From positions 1 to 64,000 of the forward strand of contig QAIB01000015.1 of the NCBI GenBank assembly GCA_030418545.1: a stretch of DNA of 64,000 bases. The letters are read 5' to 3'. This document shows positions 51,474 to 61,947 of this stretch, in pieces. The notes under the pieces were generated by a model that ran no database searches, was not told where the DNA came from, and saw only the letters and a list, made by a program, of their open reading frames with translations. The first letter of the stretch is position 1. Each line of letters starts with the position of its first letter. Source of the DNA: Xenophilus aerolatus (GTDB lineage Bacteria > Pseudomonadota > Gammaproteobacteria > Burkholderiales > Burkholderiaceae_C). The position numbers and the translations under genes were made by a program.

Positions 51474-52121
51474 TCAGGCGGCGCGCAGCATGCCGCGCTC
51501 CTCGATGAAGCGCACCACCTGCGCCACGCCGTCCTGCGTCTTCAGGTTGGTCATCACATAAGGCTTGGCCTTGCGCATGCGCTGCGTGTCCTGCTCCATC
51601 ACGCCCAGGTCCGCGCCCACGTAGGGCGCCAGGTCGGTCTTGTTGATGACGAAGAGGTCGCTCTTCGTGATGCCGGGGCCACCCTTGCGCGGAATCTTCT
51701 CGCCGGCGGCGACGTCGATCACGTAGATCGTGAGGTCCGACAGCTCGGGGCTGAAGGTGGCGGCCAGGTTGTCGCCACCGCTTTCGACGAAGACCACGTC
51801 GGCGTCCGGAAAGTCTTCCAGCATGCGGTCGATGGCCTCGAGGTTGATCGACGCGTCCTCGCGGATAGCGGTGTGCGGGCAGCCGCCCGTCTCCACGCCC
51901 ATGATGCGCTCGGCCGGCAGGGCGCCGGCGACGGTGAGCAGGCGCTGGTCTTCCTTCGTGTAGATGTCGTTGGTGATGGCGACGAGGTCGTACTGCGCGC
52001 GCATCGTCTTGCACAGCATCTCCAGCAGCGTGGTCTTGCCGGAGCCGACGGGCCCGCCGATGCCCACGCGCAGGGGCGGCAGCTTCTTGGTGCGATTGGG
52101 GATGTGGTGCAGGGCGCTCAT
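51474..52121 (-). CDS. ureG: Urease accessory GTPase UreG
   Basis: Encodes 215 residues. The P-loop is [18 protein letters not shown] near residue 21-36; the nickel-binding Cys-x-His appears in [35 protein letters not shown] is the switch region. It hydrolyses GTP to drive nickel insertion into apo-urease with UreF and UreD. Last gene of the urease operon, 9 bp after ureF. Confidence 0.96.
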
Positions 52122-52130
52122 GGGCTTGGC

Positions 52131-52832
52131 TCAGCTTCGGAAGAGTCTGGAGTACTGGGTTTCATGCCGGGCGGACAGCACCGCGAGCATGGGTGAAAAA
52201 GCCTGGCGGCTGTCGTCGTCGAGACGCATGGCCGCCTCGACGGCGGTGGGCATTTCGCGCGCGAGGCGCGCCAGCATGCGCTGGCCCGCGCTCTGGCCCA
52301 GCGGCACGGCCTTGACTGCCGCGGCGGTCATGTTCTCGGCCCAGCCGAAGGCGAAGGCCAGGCAGCCGTCGCGCACCGCGGCACCGCTGCGGGCAGCGGC
52401 GAAGGCGAAGGCCACCGGGTAGGTGACGGGCAGGCCGGCGAAGGCCTCGGCCGCGTCCTCGTGGTGCAGCTTGAGCCATTCGAGGAAGGAGCGGCCCATC
52501 TGTTCGGTCTGCAGCAGGAACTCGGCGGACTCGCGGGTGGCCAGCACCCAGGCGTTCAGCGCCTGCACGCGCGCGCTGTCGGCGCGGCGCCATGCCTCGA
52601 TCGCCGACGCGACCACGGCCAGGTCGCCGCGCGCGAGGGCGAGGTGTAGTTGGTCGACCAGCCAGTCGGCTGCCGTGGCCTCATCCTTCACGCCGGCCCA
52701 TTCCACCGCCGCCTCGAGCCCCTCGGAGTACGAGAAGCCGCCCACCGGAAGTGCAGGCGAGGCGAGCCAGATCAGCTGCAGCAGGCTGCTGGCGTCGATG
52801 GTGTCGCGTGGCGCGGTCGCGGGCGCGTGCAT
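52131..52832 (-). CDS. ureF: Urease accessory protein UreF
   Basis: Encodes 233 residues, mostly helical. [22 protein letters not shown] and the following GLEAAV are diagnostic of UreF; the C-terminus ([20 protein letters not shown], then [12 protein letters not shown]) is the flexible UreG-contact tail. It acts as a gating factor that joins apo-urease, UreD and UreG. Overlap and spacing to ureE (14 bp) and ureG show one operon. Confidence 0.95.
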
Positions 52833-53541: not shown

Positions 53542-54021
53542 CTAGAGCATCCGCGTCATGAAGTGGCTCGCCGGGTCGTTCGTGTAGTCCGAGAACGGCG
53601 CACAGGCTTCGAAGCCGTGCCGGGCGTAGAGCGCCCGTGCCGGCGCGAAGAAGGGTTGGCTTCCCGTCTCCAGGCTCATGCGGGTGTGTCCTGCGGCGCG
53701 GGCCTCGGCCAGTGCGTGGGTCAGCAACTGCGCCGCGATGCCCTGGCCGCGCAAGTGCGCGGCGGTGCGCATGGACTTGAGTTCCGAATGGCCGTCGTCC
53801 AGCCGTTTCAATGCCACGGTGCCCGCCAGCGCCTCGCCGGTCGCATCGGCCGTCCAGGCGCTCCAGAACCGGATCCCGGGTCGGCGCAGGCCCTCCAGGT
53901 CCAGCGCATGCACGCTTTCGGGCGGCGACACGCGGCGCATGTCCGCCAGATGCTCTTCCAGGAAGGCGGCGATGCGAGGGTCGCGCAGGTCGTCCAGGCG
54001 AATGTGCAGCGCCACCGCCAT
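53542..54021 (-). CDS. GNAT-family N-acetyltransferase within the urease operon
   Basis: Encodes 159 residues. The acetyl-CoA site is visible as [16 protein letters not shown] (R-x-x-G-x-G/A); [12 protein letters not shown] precedes it and FYxRHGF-like [11 protein letters not shown] follows. The acceptor is unknown. The gene starts 3 bp after ureC and precedes ureE by 83 bp, so it is co-transcribed with urease, though GNATs are not part of the known maturation pathway. Related GNATs are found in the same position in some Comamonadaceae as I recall. Confidence 0.88.
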
Positions 54022-54024
54022 CGG

Positions 54025-55743
54025 TCAGAAGAGGAAATAGCGCTGCGTCATCGGCAGCACTTTGGCCGGCTCGCAGGTCAGCAGCACGCCGTCGGCACGC
54101 ACGGCGTAGGTCTGGTGGTCGATCTCCATCTTCGGCGCATAGCCGTTGTGGATCAGGTGCTCCTTGCGCACGCCGCGGATGTTCTTCACCGCGCTCACGT
54201 TCTTGGCGAGGCCGTAGCGTTCCTTCACGCCTGCCGCCAGGCCGGCCTGCGACACGAAGGTCAGCGAGCTCTTCGCCAGCGAACCGCCGAAGGCGCCGAA
54301 CATCGGCCGGTAGTGCACCGGCTGCGGCGTGGGGATGCTGGCGTTGGGGTCGCCCATCGCTGCCATGGCGATGCTCCCGCCCTTGAGGATGCAGAAAGGC
54401 TTGACGCCGAAGAAGGCCGGCTTCCACACGACGATGTCGGCCCACTTGCCCACTTCGAGGCTGCCCACCTCGTGCGCGATGCCGTGCGAGATGGCGGGGT
54501 TGATCGTGTACTTGGCGATGTAGCGCCTGGCGCGGAAGTTGTCGGCGCGCTCGCTGTCCTCGGGCAGCGCGCCACGCTGTGCCTTCATCTTGCTCGCCGT
54601 CTGCCAGGTGCGGATGATGACCTCGCCCACGCGGCCCATGGCCTGCGAATCGCTGCTCATCATGCTGATGGCGCCCAGGTCGTGCAGGATGTCCTCGGCC
54701 GCGATGGTCTCCTTGCGGATGCGCGACTCGGCGAAGGCGAGGTCTTCGGCGATGGCGGCGTCGAGGTGGTGGCACACCATGAGCATGTCGACGTGTTCGT
54801 CGAGCGTGTTCACGGTGTAGGGCATCGTGGGGTTGGTGGAGGAGGGCAGGAAGTTCGCCTCGCCCACCACGCGCAGGATGTCCGGCGCGTGGCCGCCGCC
54901 CGCGCCCTCGGTATGGAACGCACACAGCGACCGGCCCTTGGTGGCCGCGATGGTGTCCTCGACGAAGCCCGACTCGTTCAGCGTGTCGGAATGGATCGCC
55001 ACCTGCGTGTCGGTGGCCTCGGCCACGTCCAGGCAGTGGTCGATGGCCGAGGGCGTGGTGCCCCAGTCCTCGTGCAGCTTCAGGCCGATCACGCCGGCCT
55101 CGATCTGCTCGTGCAGGGCCTCCGGCCGGCTCGCGTTGCCCTTGCCCAGGAAGCCGAGGTTCATCGGGAAGGCATCGGCCGCCTGCAGCATGCGCTCGAT
55201 GTGCCAGGGGCCGGGCGTGCAGGTGGTGGCGAAGGTGCCGGTGGCCGGCCCGGTGCCTCCGCCAAGCATGGTGGTCACGCCGCTGGCCAGCGCCTCCTCG
55301 ATCTGCTGCGGGCAGATGAAGTGGATGTGGCTGTCGATGCCGCCGGCCGTGACGATATTGCCCTCGCAGCTGATGACTTCGGTGCCGGGGCCGATGACGA
55401 TGTCCACGCCGGGCTGCGTGTCGGGGTTGCCGGCCTTGCCGATGGCGGCGATGCGGCCGTCCTTGAGGCCGATGTCGGCCTTGACGATGCCCCAGTGATC
55501 GAGGATGAGCGCATTGGTCAGCACCGTGTCGACGCTGCCCTGCGCGCGCGTGCGCTGGCTCTGCGCCATGCCGTCGCGGATCGTCTTGCCGCCGCCGAAC
55601 TTGACTTCTTCGCCGTAGCCGCCGGCGCGCAGGGTGTAGTCCTCCTCGACCTCGATCACCAGGCCCGTGTCGGCCAGGCGGACGCGGTCGCCCACGGTGG
55701 GGCCGAAAATTTCTGCATAGGCGCGGCGAGAGATGGTGGCCAC
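54025..55743 (-). CDS. ureC: Urease subunit alpha UreC
   Basis: Encodes 572 residues from a GTG ([19 protein letters not shown]). The active site is complete: HIH in [14 protein letters not shown], the carbamylated lysine in [15 protein letters not shown], His residues in HSDTLNES and [14 protein letters not shown], the flap [11 protein letters not shown], and the Asp in [14 protein letters not shown]. It binds two nickel ions and hydrolyses urea to ammonia and carbamate. It is separated from ureB by a 163-bp gap containing a long inverted repeat. Confidence 0.96.
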
Positions 55744-55906: not shown

Positions 55907-56215
55907 TCAGAGCGGCCCTTGCACCAGCCCGCGAAAGCCGTACACGGTGCGGGCGCCCGCATAGTCGACCAGCTCCACCGTGCGCTGCTGCCCCGGCTCG
56001 AAGCGCACGGCCGTGCCCGAGGCGATGTTCAGCCGCATGCCGCGCGCGGCGTTGCGGTCGAAGTCGAGCGCGCCGTTGGTTTCGGCGAAGTGGTAGTGCG
56101 AGCCGACCTGGATGGGCCGGTCGGCGGTGTTCTTCACCACCACCGTCAGCGTGCGGCGGCCCGGATTCAGGTCGTGGTCGCCCGCGTCGATCAGCAGTTC
56201 ACCAGGGATCGTCAT
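55907..56215 (-). CDS. ureB: Urease subunit beta UreB
   Basis: Encodes 102 residues, the standard size. [19 protein letters not shown], the conserved [18 protein letters not shown] and [18 protein letters not shown] are all intact, as is the C-terminal [12 protein letters not shown]. It is a structural subunit that wraps the trimer. Thirteen bp separate it from hupE/ureJ. Confidence 0.95.
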
Positions 56216-56228
56216 CGCCGCGCTCCGT

Positions 56229-56831
56229 TCAGGCGAGTCCGCCGAGCAGCGCGGCGCCCAGCAGCGCCACGGCCGCGCCGGCGATGCGCGGCATCCAGCG
56301 GTTGGCATGGCGCAGCGCGTAACCCAGGCCGATGCCGGCCACGTGCAGCAGCGCGGTGGCCGCGACCATGCCGGCCAGGGTGAGCGCCGCATCCGGCTCG
56401 CCGGCCAGTTCGTGGCCATGCGCGATGCCATGGAAGATCGCGAACACACCGACCAGCGCCGCGGCGGCCATTGCCGGGAGACGCTTCTGCGTGAGCACCA
56501 GCAGGCCCAGCACCAGCAGCGAGGCCGCGATCATCGGTTCCACCGCGGGCAGGTGCAGGCCGGCCAGGCCCATCAGTGCACCCACCAGCAGCATGGCGAC
56601 GAAGCCCAGCGGCGCCCACAGCAGGTCGGTACCGCGGCGCGCCACCAGGGCGCTCCACAGGCCCACCGCCACCATGGCGGCCAGGTGGTCCAGACCGGTC
56701 AGCGGGTGCATGAAGCCCGCGGCCAGGCCGTGGTGCAGGCCGGCATCGGCGCCCGTGTGGGCGAGGGCGGGCAGGGCGGTCAGGCTGGCGAGCGCAACGG
56801 CGGCGACGCGGGCAGGGCGGGTGAAGGACAT
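56229..56831 (-). CDS. ureJ: HupE/UreJ-family nickel transporter
   Basis: Encodes 200 residues. A signal-like first helix ([18 protein letters not shown]) is followed by the signature [18 protein letters not shown] (H-P-x4-D-H), which provides the metal site of HupE/UreJ. About six membrane segments. It likely imports nickel for urease. Placement between ureA and ureB is an arrangement seen in several Burkholderiales urease operons. Confidence 0.93.
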
Positions 56832-56851: not shown

Positions 56852-57154
56852 TCAGGCAATCGGCTGGTGCACGGTCACGAGCTTCGTGCCGTCGGGAAAG
56901 GTTGCTTCGACCTGGATGTCGGGAATCATCTCCGGCACCCCTTCCATCACGTCGTCGCGCGTCAGGACGGAACGGCCCTCGCTCATCAGCGCGGCGACCG
57001 TCTTGCCGTCGCGCGCACCTTCCATGACGGCGGCTGAGATCAGGGCCACCGCCTCGGGATAGTTCAGCTTCAGCCCGCGGGCCTTGCGCCGCTCCGCCAG
57101 CAGGGCGGCGGTGAAGATCAGGAGCTTGTCTTTCTCTCTGGGAGTCAATTCCAT
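56852..57154 (-). CDS. ureA: Urease subunit gamma UreA
   Basis: Encodes 100 residues ([20 protein letters not shown]), the exact family length, with [20 protein letters not shown] and [14 protein letters not shown]-like [17 protein letters not shown]. First structural gene of the operon. The usual upstream ureD is absent: the next gene on this side starts 42 bp away on the opposite strand. Confidence 0.96.
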
Positions 57155-57196: not shown

Positions 57197-60100
57197 ATGG
57201 GCAACGACGCATCCTTGCAACAGTCGTGCCGCGGGCCGGCTTCGGCATGGAATGTGCACCGCAATGGTGTGCCCCCTGACTCCGCCTCCGCCATCGAACC
57301 GTCCGACGCCGACCGCGAGGACGCGCCCCAGCGCATCGTCAAGGTCCGGCGCGACTACAACAGCTGGGTCGGCAGCGAGACGCTGGAGGACTACGCGCTG
57401 CGCTTCACGCCGCAGCGCTTTCGCAAGTGGTCGGAATGGCGCGTGGCCAACACCGCCTTCGGGGCGGCGTCCTTCCTGATCCTGGAAGCCGTGGGCGCCA
57501 CGCTGCTGGTGCAGTACGGCTTCGCGAACGCCTTCTGGGCCATCCTGGCGACGGGACTCATCATCTTCCTGGCCGGCTGGCCGATCAGCGTCTACGCGGC
57601 GCGCTACGGCGTCGACATGGACCTGCTCACGCGTGGCGCGGGCTTCGGCTACATCGGCTCGACCATCACTTCGCTGATCTACGCCAGCTTCACCTTCATC
57701 TTCTTCGCGCTCGAGGCGGCCGTGATGGCCTACGCGCTGGAACTGGCCCTGGGCGTCCCGCCGGCCTGGGGCTACCTGGTGTGTGCGCTGGTCGTCATCC
57801 CGCTGGTCACGCACGGCGTCTCGGCCATCAGCCGCCTGCAGCTGTGGACGCAGCCGATCTGGCTGCTCATGCTGGTGGTGCCCTTCGGCTTCGTGCTGAT
57901 GCGCGATCCTGGTGCGTTTGCCGGCATCACGCACTACGCCGGGGATCGCAGAGGTTCGGCGGGCTTCAGTCTGCACCTTTTCGGTGCCGCGTTGACGGTG
58001 GGCATCGCCCTCATCACCCAGATGGGCGAGCAGGCCGACTACCTGCGTTTCATGCCCGCGCGCACCCGCGCCAACCGTGGCCGCTGGTGGCTGGGCGTGA
58101 TGGCGGGCGGGCCGGGCTGGGTGGTGCTGGGCGTGGTCAAGATGCTGGGCGGCGCGCTGCTGGCCTACCTGGCGATCACCCACATGGTGCCGACCGAACG
58201 CGCCGTGGACCCGAACCAGATGTACCTCGCGGCCTACGAGTACGTCTTCCCGCACTACGGCTGGGCGGTGGCGGCGACGGCGCTCTTCGTCGTGATCTCG
58301 CAGCTCAAGATCAACGTGACCAACGCCTACGCGGGCTCGCTGGCCTGGAGCAACTTCTTCTCGCGCGTCACGCACAGCCACCCGGGGCGCGTGGTGTGGG
58401 TGGTGTTCAACGCGCTCATCGCCTTCATGCTGATGGAGATGAACGTGTTCGAGGCCCTGGGCGACGTGCTGGGCCTGTACGCCAACATCGCCATCGCCTG
58501 GATGATGGCGGTGGTCGCCGACCTGGTGGTCAACAAGCCGCTGGGCCTGTCGCCGCCGGGCATCGAGTTCAAGCGCGCCCACCTGTGGGACATCAACCCG
58601 GTCGGCGTCGGCGCGATGGTGCTGGCCTCGGCCCTGTCGATCACGGCGCACCTGGGCGTGTTCGGGCCGCTGGCGCAGTCCTTCTCGGCCGTGATCGCGC
58701 TGGGCACGGCCTTCGTGACGGCGCCGCTGATCGCGTGGGCGACGAAGGGGCGCTATTACCTTGCGCGTGACTCCGCTCCCGTCCGCCAACGGGAGAAGGG
58801 GAGAAAAATCCGTTGGGCAAAGGTCGAGCAAGCCGCGTCGGCAGCGCTGGTCACCCAGCGCTGCGTGATCTGCGAACGGGAGTACGAAGGCCCCGACATG
58901 GCGCATTGCCCCGCGTACCAGGGCGCCATCTGTTCGCTGTGCTGCACCCTCGACGCCCGCTGCGGCGACCTGTGCAAGCCGCAGGCCTCGCTTTCGGCGC
59001 AGTGGTCGGCCACCCTGCGCTGGCTGCTGCCGCGGCGCGTGTGGCCCTACCTCGACACCGGCCTGGGCCACTTCATCATGCTCATGCTGATCGTCGTGCC
59101 GCTGCTGGCGGCGGTGTTCGGCGTGCTCTACCAGCAGGAGCTGCGCGGCGTCGGCGAATGGGTGCAGGCGGGCACCGCCGCGGCCCCGGGCGTGGGCAAG
59201 GCGGTGGGCGCCGAGGTGGGCAGCGCACTGCGCGGCGGCTTCTTCAAGGCCTACATGGCGCTGCTGCTCATCGCGGGCATCGTCGCCTGGTGGCTGGTGC
59301 TGGCGCACCAGAGCCGCAAGGTGGCGCAGGAGGAGTCGAACCGCCAGACCCACCTGCTCATGCGCGAGATCGAACTGCACCGCGAGACCGACCGCGCCCT
59401 GCAGGAGGCCAAGCAGACGGCCGATGCCGCCAACCAGGCCAAGAGCCGCTACATCAGCGCCATCAGCCACGAACTGCGCACGCCGCTCAACTCGATCCTC
59501 GGCTACGCCCAGCTCATGGGCGAGGACGCCTCCGTGCCGCCGCACCGCCAGCAGGCCGTGGCGGTCATCAAGCGCGGCGGCGAGCACCTGCTGTCGCTCA
59601 TCGAGGGCACGCTGGACCTGGCCCACATCGAGTCGGGCAAGCTGACGTTGCAGGCGCGGCCGCTGCGCTTCGTCGACATGCTGCGCGAGCTGGCCGAGAT
59701 GTTCGAGCCGCAGGCCGCCGACAAGGGCCTGCGCTTTCGCTTCGAGCCCACGGGCGCCCTGCCCGAGGTGGTGCGCGCCGACGAGAAGCGCGTGCGCCAG
59801 ATCCTCATCAACCTGCTGGGCAATGCCATCAAGTTCACCGCCCGCGGCGAGGTGGGCCTGCGCGTGGCCTATGCGCGCGAGTTCGCCACCCTCGAGATCG
59901 AGGACACCGGCCCCGGCATGGACGCGCAGGCGCTGGCGCGCATCTTCGAGCCCTTCGTGCGCGTCGAGTCGCCCGGCACGGCGGCCACACCGGGCGCCGG
60001 CCTGGGCCTGACCATGGCCAAGATGCTCACCGACCTCATGGGCGGCGAGATGAAGGTGCAGAGCACGCCCGGGCAGGGCTCGGTGTTCCGGGTGCGTCTT

Positions 60101-60919
60101 TTCCTGCCGCGGGTGCACGACGCGCCGGCGCGGGCGGCGAACACGGCCCCGTCGCCTGCCGTGGCGGCACGCCCCCGCCGTGGCTACGAAGGCGAGCGCC
60201 GCCGCCTGCTGGTGGTCGACAACGAGGAGACCGACCGCGAACTGCTCGTGCATCTGCTGGCGCCGCTGGGCTTCGAGCTGCGCACCGCCGCCAGCGGCCA
60301 CGACGCGCTCGACCTGCTGGCCGCCGGCTTCCGTCCCCACGCCATGTTCGTCGACCTTGCGATGCCGGGCATCGACGGGTGGGAAACGCTGCGCCGGGCG
60401 CGGGCCTTCTGGGAGGCAGGCGACGGCGGGGGCCGGCCGGCGCCGGGCCGCCCCAAGCCGGACGCGGCCCCCTCGGGGGGCAGCGAGGACACGCAGTGCC
60501 GAGCGTGGGGGCCAGCAACCGCCATCGTCTCGGCCAATGCCTTCGACAAGCGGCTGGAGAACGACGTCGGCATCACGCCCGAGGACTTCTTCGTCAAGCC
60601 GGTGCGCCACAGCGAGCTGCTGGACTGGTTGGAGCGCCGGCTGCAACTGCGCTGGACCGACACGCCCGCGACGGCGGCGCAGCCGCCCGCAGCCGAGGCG
60701 CCCGTGGCCCCGTCGCCCGAACGCCTGCGTGCCCTGGAAGAGGCCGTCCAGCTCGGTTACCTTCGCGGCATCATGAAGCAGCTCGACGAGATCGACGCGG
60801 CGCAGCCGGCCTGTGCCGCCTGGACCGCGCAGCAGCGCACGCGCGCGCGGCAGTTCCAGTTCGAAGCGATGGCCGAGGCCATCCGCCGCGCCGGCGCGGC
60901 GCCGGAGTCCGTGGCATGA
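57197..60919 (+). CDS. NCS1 transporter fused to histidine kinase and receiver domain
   Basis: Encodes 1240 residues. Order seen: short cytoplasmic start; an NCS1 (cytosine/purine/allantoin-type) permease at about 55-520 with some twelve hydrophobic segments and GADYLRF-like [16 protein letters not shown]; a cysteine-rich segment at about 556-600 ([34 protein letters not shown]) able to bind zinc; two more membrane helices near 625 and 690; HisKA with H758 in [16 protein letters not shown]; HATPase with [14 protein letters not shown] and [18 protein letters not shown]; and a receiver with the phospho-Asp near 1053 (MFVDLAMPG). The family parallel is CbrA, which fuses an SSS-type transporter to a kinase; an NCS1 version is much less known. 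Two short palindromic repeats interrupt its coding sequence in frame. It is divergent from urease and coupled to its regulator. Confidence 0.88.
58776..58795. repeat. Short in-frame palindrome in the transporter-kinase gene
   Basis: CTCCCGT (58776-58782) and ACGGGAG (58789-58795) with loop CCGCCA, flanked by CTCCG and AAGGGGAG. It codes for part of the linker [13 protein letters not shown] between the permease and the cysteine-rich segment. It has the look of the common CTCCC/GGGAG intergenic repeats and appears to have been absorbed into the reading frame. Confidence 0.5.
60444..60512. repeat. In-frame GC-rich repeat inside the receiver domain
   Basis: A 69-bp stretch beginning GGGCCGCCCCAAGCCGG and containing GGCCCCCTCGGGGGGC followed by CAGCGAGGACACGCAGTGCC and GAGCGTGGGGGC. 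It encodes a Pro/Gly-rich insert ([16 protein letters not shown], then [10 protein letters not shown]) in the receiver, between the helix after the phospho-Asp strand and the next strand. I recall closely similar sequences as intergenic repeats in Comamonadaceae. Frame and stop-free reading are kept. Confidence 0.55.
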
Positions 60920-61947
60920 AGCCGCCGCCGTCGCCCCTGGCCGCCAGCCTGCGCGAGGAGACCGCGCGCGGCGACCTGGTGCTCATCGTCGACGACGTGC
61001 CCGACAACCTCGCCGTGCTGCACGACGCGCTGGACGAGTCGGGCTACACGGTGCTGGTGGCGACCAGCGGCGAGGCCGCACTGGTCCGCGCCGCCCAGGC
61101 GCAGCCCGACATCGTGCTGCTCGACGCCATGATGCCGGGGATGGACGGCTTCGAGGTCGCGCGCCGGCTCAAGGCCGATGTGGCCACGGCGCACATTCCC
61201 ATCGTGTTCATGACCGGGCTGACCGAGACCGAGCACCTGGTGGCCGCGCTGGACGCCGGCGGCGTGGACTACGTGACCAAGCCGATCAAGCCCAAGGAAG
61301 TGCTGGCGCGCATGAACGTGCACCTGCAGGGCGCCCGCGCCGCGCGCCAGCAGGCCCAGCAGGCCGGCCAGGCGCGCAATGCGCTCGATGCCTTCGGCTA
61401 TGCCAGCATCACGGTGCGCATGCCCGAGGGGCGACTCATCTGGCAGACATCGCTGGCGCGCGACCTGCTGCTGCGCTATTGCGGCACCACCGCGCCGCAG
61501 ACGCCCGCAGCCGTGCTCGACTGGCTGCACCAGCACCTGCCTACCACGGCAGGCGGTGTGGAGCCGCCGCCGCTGACCATCGAGCAGGGCGCGCGCCACC
61601 TGCAGCTGCGCGTGCACCAGCAGACGGGAGACCGGGACGAGCCCGGGCAGAACCTGCCGGGCTGGGCCGGCGACTGGCTGCTCATCATCCGCGAGGTGTC
61701 CGACGCCAGCGTGATCGAGGCCATGAGCCTGGCACTCAAGCTCACGGCGCGCGAGGCCGAGGTGCTGTACTGGGTGGTCAAGGGCAAGACCAACAAGGAC
61801 ATCGGCGACATCCTCGGCAGCAGCCCGGCCACCGCCAAGAAGCACCTCGAGCGCGTGTTCGTCAAGCTCGGCGTGGAGACGCGCACCGCGGCGGCGGGTG
61901 TGGCCCTCAAGCGCATCCGCATGATCCAGCCGCATTTCGAGGTGTAG
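60916..61947 (+). CDS. Response regulator with LuxR-type HTH output
   Basis: Encodes 343 residues; the ATG overlaps the kinase stop (ATGA). The receiver (about 20-140) has the acidic pair VDDVPD, phospho-acceptor D70 in [14 protein letters not shown] and K in [12 protein letters not shown] middle region of about 130 residues has no recognised domain and may be a PAS-like or regulatory fold. The C-terminal LuxR HTH (about 275-335) is [17 protein letters not shown], then [20 protein letters not shown], ending [12 protein letters not shown]. It is the direct output partner of the NCS1 kinase; the IR next to ureA is a candidate target. Confidence 0.9.

Follow-up and report, generated by a model that had tools for sequence, protein, structure and literature searches.

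Urea ranks among the major fertilisers and is commonly used as a source of nitrogen. Here, we describe a hybrid sensor kinase encoded beside the urease genes in a 64,000-nucleotide stretch of contig C6 (hereafter the window) from the 5.84 Mb genome of Xenophilus aerolatus, with Comamonadaceae as the nearest named relatives in a scan of one genome per species. The protein joins an outlying member of the NCS1 permease superfamily to a histidine kinase and a receiver, and the next gene encodes a NarL/FixJ-type response regulator. Based on the genes that recur beside this protein and its relatives, the fusion is probably a sensor for urea or simple amides. We further consider it rather likely that kinase and regulator form a two-component urea transceptor, in which the regulator would act in trans on the urea transporter operon urtABCDE and sigma-54-type promoters would set the level of both urease and the sensor.

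The kinase lies in one frame (57197-60919) of 1240 residues that is open throughout, without any internal stop. The gene arrangement reported in a first-pass annotation of the same DNA was recovered in full, including this single fusion frame, a LuxR-type neighbour overlapping the kinase 3' end via ATGA (343 residues, with a full receiver and a GerE helix-turn-helix by Pfam) and a divergent urease cluster (UreA, UreB, UreC, UreF, UreG and UreJ identified), the ureA start at 57154 being separated by 42 bp from the kinase ATG at 57197. For comparison we used 80 close loci, the best of at least 588 relative-encoding stretches (at least 597 candidates) from one genome each of 84,980 species. They hold 81 family frames, four of which leave contig ends, and all of the 77 closed frames are fused, span 1144-1500 residues from stop to stop and contain the H-box histidine. 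Two genes joined by a sequencing error, which the first-pass annotation had named as a refutation of its reading, are thus ruled out.

Assignment of the N-terminal half to NCS1, also proposed earlier, failed in Pfam and PDB sequence searches and held in profile and fold comparisons. At E 1, the window protein matched only the kinase and receiver models in Pfam (HisKA, HATPase_c and Response_reg), with neither an NCS1 nor an SSF (SLC5) domain. When 21 relatives (alignment A1) were searched at E 10, PF02133 was not found and only single noise matches appeared (best E 1.7), and a PDB sequence search with the N-terminal half gave nothing below E 0.9 (one chance match, E 0.99). The label NCS1-type therefore rests on profile-profile and structure comparison. 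In hhalign, a profile of 83 relatives matched one of 24 NCS1 proteins at 99.5% (E 2.4e-22, 416 columns) and, as a control, one of 13 SSS proteins at 11.8% (E 0.0025, 196 columns), on which ground an SSS/SLC5 origin was rejected; the NCS1 and SSS profiles matched each other at 90.9%. An AlphaFold2 model of residues 45-745 (pLDDT 82, pTM 0.82) was compared by Foldseek with 350,542 PDB chains, with the hydantoin permease Mhp1 on top (E 1.6e-8) followed by the cytosine permease CodB (E 6.5e-7), at TM-scores of 0.65-0.74 by target length and 0.45-0.49 by query length and a root-mean-square deviation of 5.1-6.2. Additionally, of two distant copies without a kinase, L165 (562-codon frame) passes the PF02133 cut-off (31.9 bits vs 23.5), and L150 (617 codons) does not match this model. 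By profiles and fold, the permease-like domain belongs to the NCS1 superfamily, on an outlying branch.

Individual positions, with Mhp1 and CodB numbers taken from profile and sequence alignments, indicate which parts of the transporter have been kept. At Mhp1 Trp117 and Trp220, which we take to be the NCS1 ligand tryptophans, the family has Phe (76/83) or Leu (7/83) and G, A, L, I or V (74/83), respectively. Gln121 corresponds to Glu in 83/83, and the TM8 asparagines Asn314 and Asn318 are kept in 83/83 each. The presumed sodium-site residues (Mhp1 S312/T313, CodB T278/T279) are represented by Lys in 83/83 and Ile in 82/83. Among the 24 NCS1 proteins, the first of these two positions is G in 9, T in 8, A in 4 and S, R or D in one each, with no Lys, and the second is I in 11 and T in 10, so the sodium site varies among NCS1 proteins too. 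The alignment thus puts the family lysine, K371 of the window protein and K327 of its NCS1-like domain, at the putative sodium site, and transport of nucleobases or related rings is a candidate NCS1 trait of the domain.

Between permease and kinase, the cysteine-rich segment seen in the first pass consists of eight cysteines (556, 559, 571, 579, 582, 583, 589 and 593 in the window protein), which are invariant in 79 sequences (alignment A2) and perhaps bind metal. No Pfam domain matched residues 525-745, the region comprising these cysteines and two transmembrane helices. The ICSLCC pattern, searched as DNA in 30 genomes, gave 29 matches, 27 of which have coordinates within family genes, and none when reversed; its interpretation as a general module was rejected, as it is close to family-specific in these genomes. 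The cysteines are kept in standalone L150, and standalone L165 has a worn copy; PDB matches of L165 to tetraheme cytochromes were attributed to chance similarity in its cysteine tail. The preceding linker (58770-58860) varies in length (L014, L017, L021, L022, L026), and in several relatives it resembles, by eye, translated intergenic repeat sequence.

In the signalling half, Pfam places HisKA at residues 748-814, HATPase_c at 862-970 and Response_reg at 1005-1070. The H-box SHELRTP sets the histidine at 758, in agreement with the earlier assignment, and the H, N and G boxes as well as the receiver Asp and Lys are all present in the window kinase. Strict motifs were found in most of the 77 closed frames (H 76, N 76, G1 57, G2 73, D 73, K 72), the H-box of the 77th reading THELRTP. 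The receiver match is partial, and approximately 30 extra residues (~1075-1104) separate its Asp motif from its Lys motif. This GC-rich in-frame insert (60419-60508), located between the Asp and Ser/Thr motifs, is common to the near relative L034, and the protein match breaks there in several relatives; a repeated element was rejected, since the window has no second copy.

Gene order at these loci is conserved far beyond chance. A survey of ureA adjacency, as suggested in the first pass, found ureA divergent within 420 bp of the kinase in 49/80 close loci and within 1.5 kb in 6 more, and the regulator lies at most 4.2 kb downstream in 74/80. Urease genes are present at 59 of the 80 (in 4 of them elsewhere in the locus) and urt genes only at 6; in L039, urt is beside a second family copy. 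Across the loci scanned, UrtA to UrtE, FmdA and AmiE were named over cut-off by NCBIfam. In a phylum-wide sample (40 loci fetched of 59 matches), ure, urt, fmdA or amiE occurred at 39/40 loci, the exception being a 4.8 kb contig, and in L214, L215 and L217 these genes were several kb away; a class-level sample had them in 10/18 regions. The window genome also contains a paralogue (C22:359481-362438, 56% identical) facing UrtA-E-like genes and formamidase, and of the two copies in genome G567, one neighbours urt-fmdA and the other ure genes. Of the standalone relatives, L165 stands after ureABCEFG on the same strand and L150 before fmdA and amiE. By neighbour label, the 83 family rows divide into 44 amide, 27 urea, 1 both and 11 none, where amide-type means FmdA/AmiE company and identity bands that we set, as UrtA of the amide side is likewise over the cut-off of the urea UrtA model. 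Clustering of the urea and amide labels was seen on a quick tree (0/500 shuffles as low), with at least six switches, and the label none lacks clear clustering (37/500 shuffles). These neighbours, which recur across deep branches, point to urea and small amides as the ligands. In a group of loci from Cognatazoarcus, Zoogloea, Denitromonas and kin (L086-L089, L095, L101, L103), kinase and regulator stand with no ure or urt within ~10 kb, and in L109, another Denitromonas, urt is present.

The gap between ureA and the kinase carries sigma-54-like elements in both directions (Table 1). Sites were searched as TGGCACG-N4-TTGCA with GG and GC fixed and scored as matches of 12, using shuffles as control. 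In the 50 ureA-kinase gaps below 420 bp (the window and 49 loci), sites of at least 9/12 face ureA in 43 and the kinase in 41 (shuffles 3.4 and 2.4), and sites of at least 10/12 do so in 31 and 35 (shuffles 0.5 and 0.5). Across the whole window, only its ureA-facing element reaches a score of 11. For 40 amide-type gaps at 9/12 or above, the kinase side had 22 (shuffles 2.8) and the urtA side 4 (2.5), thus in both clades a sigma-54-like site tends to accompany the sensor, but not urtA. A regulator of REC and GerE alone is not expected to activate sigma-54 promoters. In the L043 gap, two such elements (12 and 11 of 12) are arranged back to back and form a palindrome that is nearly perfect.

These elements also bear on the start of the kinase, which is probably GTG 57269 rather than ATG 57197, because the ATG is not conserved across relatives, an in-frame GTG lies exactly 14 bases past the TGCAC start in 20 of the 40 rows listed (57254-57272 in the window) and the codons 5' of GTG 57269 overlap promoter-like elements. 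As this GTG would fall at about +1 of the sigma-54-like promoter, a leaderless kinase mRNA is possible.

A candidate operator was found upstream of urtA. In a gapped-word scan of the 40 amide-type gaps, the palindrome TACGTCA-N2-TGACGTA stood out, more generally a 7-2-7 inverted repeat of about TACGYCA-N2-TGRCGTA. The 7-2-7 layout is that of NarL-type sites. The exact form TACG-N8-CGTA is present in 31 of these gaps (shuffles 0.0), and five of the remaining nine reach a matrix score of 16. Over 37 other loci (684 kb), the matrix gave 15 matches of at least 15 bits, all of them upstream of urtA or of the kinase, and 0 on reversed sequence. Among 16 urea-type urtA genes of urea-labelled loci, 10 have the repeat 66-204 bp upstream and L154 has it at 339 bp; it is also found at the kinase in L154, L160, L162, L164 and L226. 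In the window genome, the pattern TACGYCAYYNNNCGTA matches twice, at C5:53113, ~70 bp ahead of the urea-type urtA start codon (TACGCCA-CC-CGGCGTA), and at C22:362576, between the paralogue and its amide-type UrtA (TACGTCA-TT-CAACGTA); no other UrtA gene of this genome is over cut-off. Extended to 15 genomes of the genus, the pattern gave 26 matches, of which 21 were upstream of UrtA (13/15 urea-type, 8/8 amide-type), and the other two urea-type promoters (G003, G004) have a repeat with a G that the pattern excludes, which by matrix makes 15/15. Judged from this placement, the likely direct target of the regulator in the window genome is urtABCDE on another contig.

Taken together, we propose that the NCS1-like domain would bind, and possibly transport, external urea, and that the resulting conformational change would pass via the cysteine segment and the two transmembrane helices to the kinase. 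The NarL-type regulator would then become phosphorylated, bind the 7-2-7 repeat upstream of urtABCDE and turn on high-affinity urea uptake, and in other branches it may act on its own operon. Urease and the sensor operon would be expressed from the divergent sigma-54-type promoters, with nitrogen limitation, probably through NtrC, setting their level, such that urea uptake would need both nitrogen shortage and ligand. The paralogue may do likewise for short-chain amides (UrtA-E-like transporter, formamidase) via the sister repeat.

Several observations weigh against this proposal. Neither ure nor urt is found at 15/80 close loci, of which 4 have less than 250 bp upstream and one less than 2 kb downstream of the domain start, none of ure, urt, fmdA and amiE in 8/18 class-sample regions, and none of these genes within 11 kb in 11/83 rows, including Zoogloea and one Denitromonas; moreover, the sampled loci share ancestry. 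Residues linked to urea or amide neighbours failed an independent-pairs test, in which 5 pairs cannot reach 0.05. Regarding the repeat, four amide-type gaps stay below 14 by matrix (L157, L210, L221, L225), in L160, L164 and L226 it lies at the kinase instead of urtA, L234 and L236 have none, and neither has a third, sub-threshold UrtA in G001. Two of the 15 genus genomes are from one species, and the reversed pattern is commoner than the pattern itself, both in the genus (54 vs 26) and in the window genome (4 vs 2), thus placement rather than number is the evidence. In the matrix scan, the repeat was absent from the window's own ureA-kinase gap, and the tie between regulator and repeat consists of co-occurrence and the NarL-type layout, making binding putative. 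Among candidate specificity residues, the top columns listed (M393, Y135, L442, H202, D294) were not significant once relatedness was counted.

Other readings were considered. The sensor may respond not to the ligand itself but to a product or physical cue, such as ammonium, carbonate or the pH rise caused by urease, and tune the urea and amide genes, which we regard as unlikely. Ammonia is set free from urea as well as from amides, which would account for one family serving both pathways, and ammonium-sensing kinases exist (Ks-Amt5, PMC5764959; GrtK, PMC12918730; excerpts of both). However, separate urea and amide copies within one genome, as in G567 and the window genome, would be needless for a common ammonia signal, and the relatives of the domain are permeases for rings with ureido and amide groups, with no Amt model matched. 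Less probable still is that the protein is mainly a urea or amide transporter with a kinase reporting flux, not binding: standalone relatives do occur in urease and formamidase gene sets, and CbrA both transports and signals (excerpts of PMC7096432 and PMC13022988), but UrtABCDE already serves uptake and transport by the fusion is only putative. The first-pass suggestion of a sensor for hydantoin, allantoin or another purine product in direct control of urease is very improbable, since despite the ligands that NCS1 members presumably carry, the top folds Mhp1 and CodB and the adjacent urease, it is urea and amide genes that recur beside the family, the window gap has sigma-54-like promoters and no repeat, and the two presumed ligand tryptophans are not kept.

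Beyond the proposed urea transceptor of the window, we see about an even chance that the family represents a widespread transceptor class, in which an NCS1-derived module would recognise a small amide or ureido group, serve several outputs, be matched to sister operators within the genus and have reached a CbrA-like Na2-site lysine independently. With an N-terminal profile, the family was detected in 17/369 genomes of the class sample (E 1e-15) and 53/398 of the phylum sample (E 1e-6), with no match listed between E 1e-164 and the threshold save one 53-residue fragment; at most four candidates were scored per genome, so weaker kin may be missed. Outputs include hybrid kinases (PAS-PAS-HisKA-HATPase-REC in L163), plain kinases (L152, L121, L214 and, by eye, L215) and once PAS-GGDEF-EAL, fused to the NCS1-cysteine-transmembrane module in L158:6852-10481 (-), possibly an amide- or urea-responsive cyclic-di-GMP enzyme. 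The half-sites in the window's genus are TACGCCA (urea) and TACGTCA (amide), other branches mixing these letters, and, if the class is real, such sister operators would keep the urea and amide copies apart in this genus.

Coordinates of the features are collected in Table 1. Between ureC and ureE, there is also an acetyltransferase-like gene (named by eye, 53542-54021, minus strand), a relative of which is present in 8/80 close loci.

Table 1. Features of the sensor kinase locus and the adjacent urease cluster, in window coordinates.
Feature	Position	Strand	Basis or remark
Hybrid sensor kinase gene	57269..60919 (proposed GTG start)	+	First-pass start: ATG 57197
NCS1-like transporter domain, residues 45-525	57329..58771	+	hhalign, Foldseek; no Pfam match
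Eight-cysteine segment, residues 556-593, CxxC...C...CSLCC...C...C	58862..58975	+	Sequence
Two extra transmembrane helices, ~residues 613-705	59033..59311	+	Sequence and model helices
HisKA, phospho-acceptor His758	59438..59638	+	Pfam, motif
HATPase_c	59780..60106	+	Pfam
Receiver domain, extra in-frame residues ~60419-60508	60209..60646	+	Pfam, motifs
NarL/LuxR-type response regulator, REC and GerE	60916..61947	+	Pfam
Sigma-54-like -24/-12 element facing ureA, CGGCACGACTGTTGCA, 11/12	57216..57231	-	
Weaker sigma-54-like element facing kinase, CGGCATGGAATGTGCA, 9/12	57243..57258	+	
ureA, urease gamma subunit	56852..57154	-	NCBIfam
ureJ/hupE	56229..56831	-	Pfam
ureB	55907..56233	-	NCBIfam
ureC	54025..55734	-	NCBIfam
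ureF	52131..52832	-	Pfam
ureG	51474..52121	-	Pfam

Fusions of transporters with kinases are known as a kind, including CbrA, CrbS and Ks-Amt5. The SLC5/STAC kinases CbrA, CrbS and RpuS (excerpts of PMC13022988, PMC5715377 and PMC9100948) resemble the family in having a LeuT-fold transporter domain fused to a kinase, which supports the CbrA-like logic of a permease-kinase beside nitrogen genes that the first pass had put forward. CrbR, in excerpted accounts, is of the LuxR type and depends on an inverted repeat within the promoters it targets, a further likeness to the proposed action of the window's regulator. The Na2 site of CbrA is occupied by a lysine and its histidine transport is proton-driven and sodium-independent (excerpts of PMC13022988), and the sodium-site-aligned lysine of the family may be the counterpart of that lysine; however, the CbrA lysine is on TM6, whereas that of the family is on the helix that corresponds to Mhp1 TM8 by alignment. 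The family differs in addition by being NCS1-like rather than SLC5, by its urea and amide context and, apparently, by having the eight-cysteine segment and two transmembrane helices in the place of the CbrA STAC bundle. Ks-Amt5 likewise uses a transporter fold for sensing a nitrogen compound (excerpts of PMC5764959), but this is the Amt fold. Mhp1 and CodB are the best fold matches of the family and share with it profile homology and the TM8 asparagines, but they are not kinases and their presumed sodium-site residues are Lys and Ile in the family.

With regard to amides, AmiC/AmiR also governs short-chain amide breakdown, but by antitermination (excerpts of PMC13209695). The same excerpts describe an amiE-fmdA-fmdB-urtABCDE set on the chromosome that lacks amiC and amiR, call fmdB a positive regulator and name no sensor kinase for the set. 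The nearest mention is in PMC13296017, where excerpts of the text and the Figure 6 legend have a hybrid histidine kinase and a LuxR-family regulator annotated beside a urtABCDE operon. Among the matches listed from the open-access literature, no NCS1-kinase fusion, no urea or amide system of such kind and no sensor in the membrane that detects urea or simple amides outside the cell was described, in line with the earlier remark that this is not a characterised system; nor did these matches contain an NCS1-based sensor, a coupling part with eight cysteines, the assignment to urea and amides or the candidate operator. The family is frequent in the phylum, usually beside the uptake genes it would control, and offers for study a putative ligand class, a candidate operator and the conserved lysine. 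If our reading is correct, it comprises a dedicated bacterial urea sensor derived from a permease, suggesting that besides SLC5 and Amt, at least one further transporter family has seen permeases converted to sensors, and with a different coupling element.

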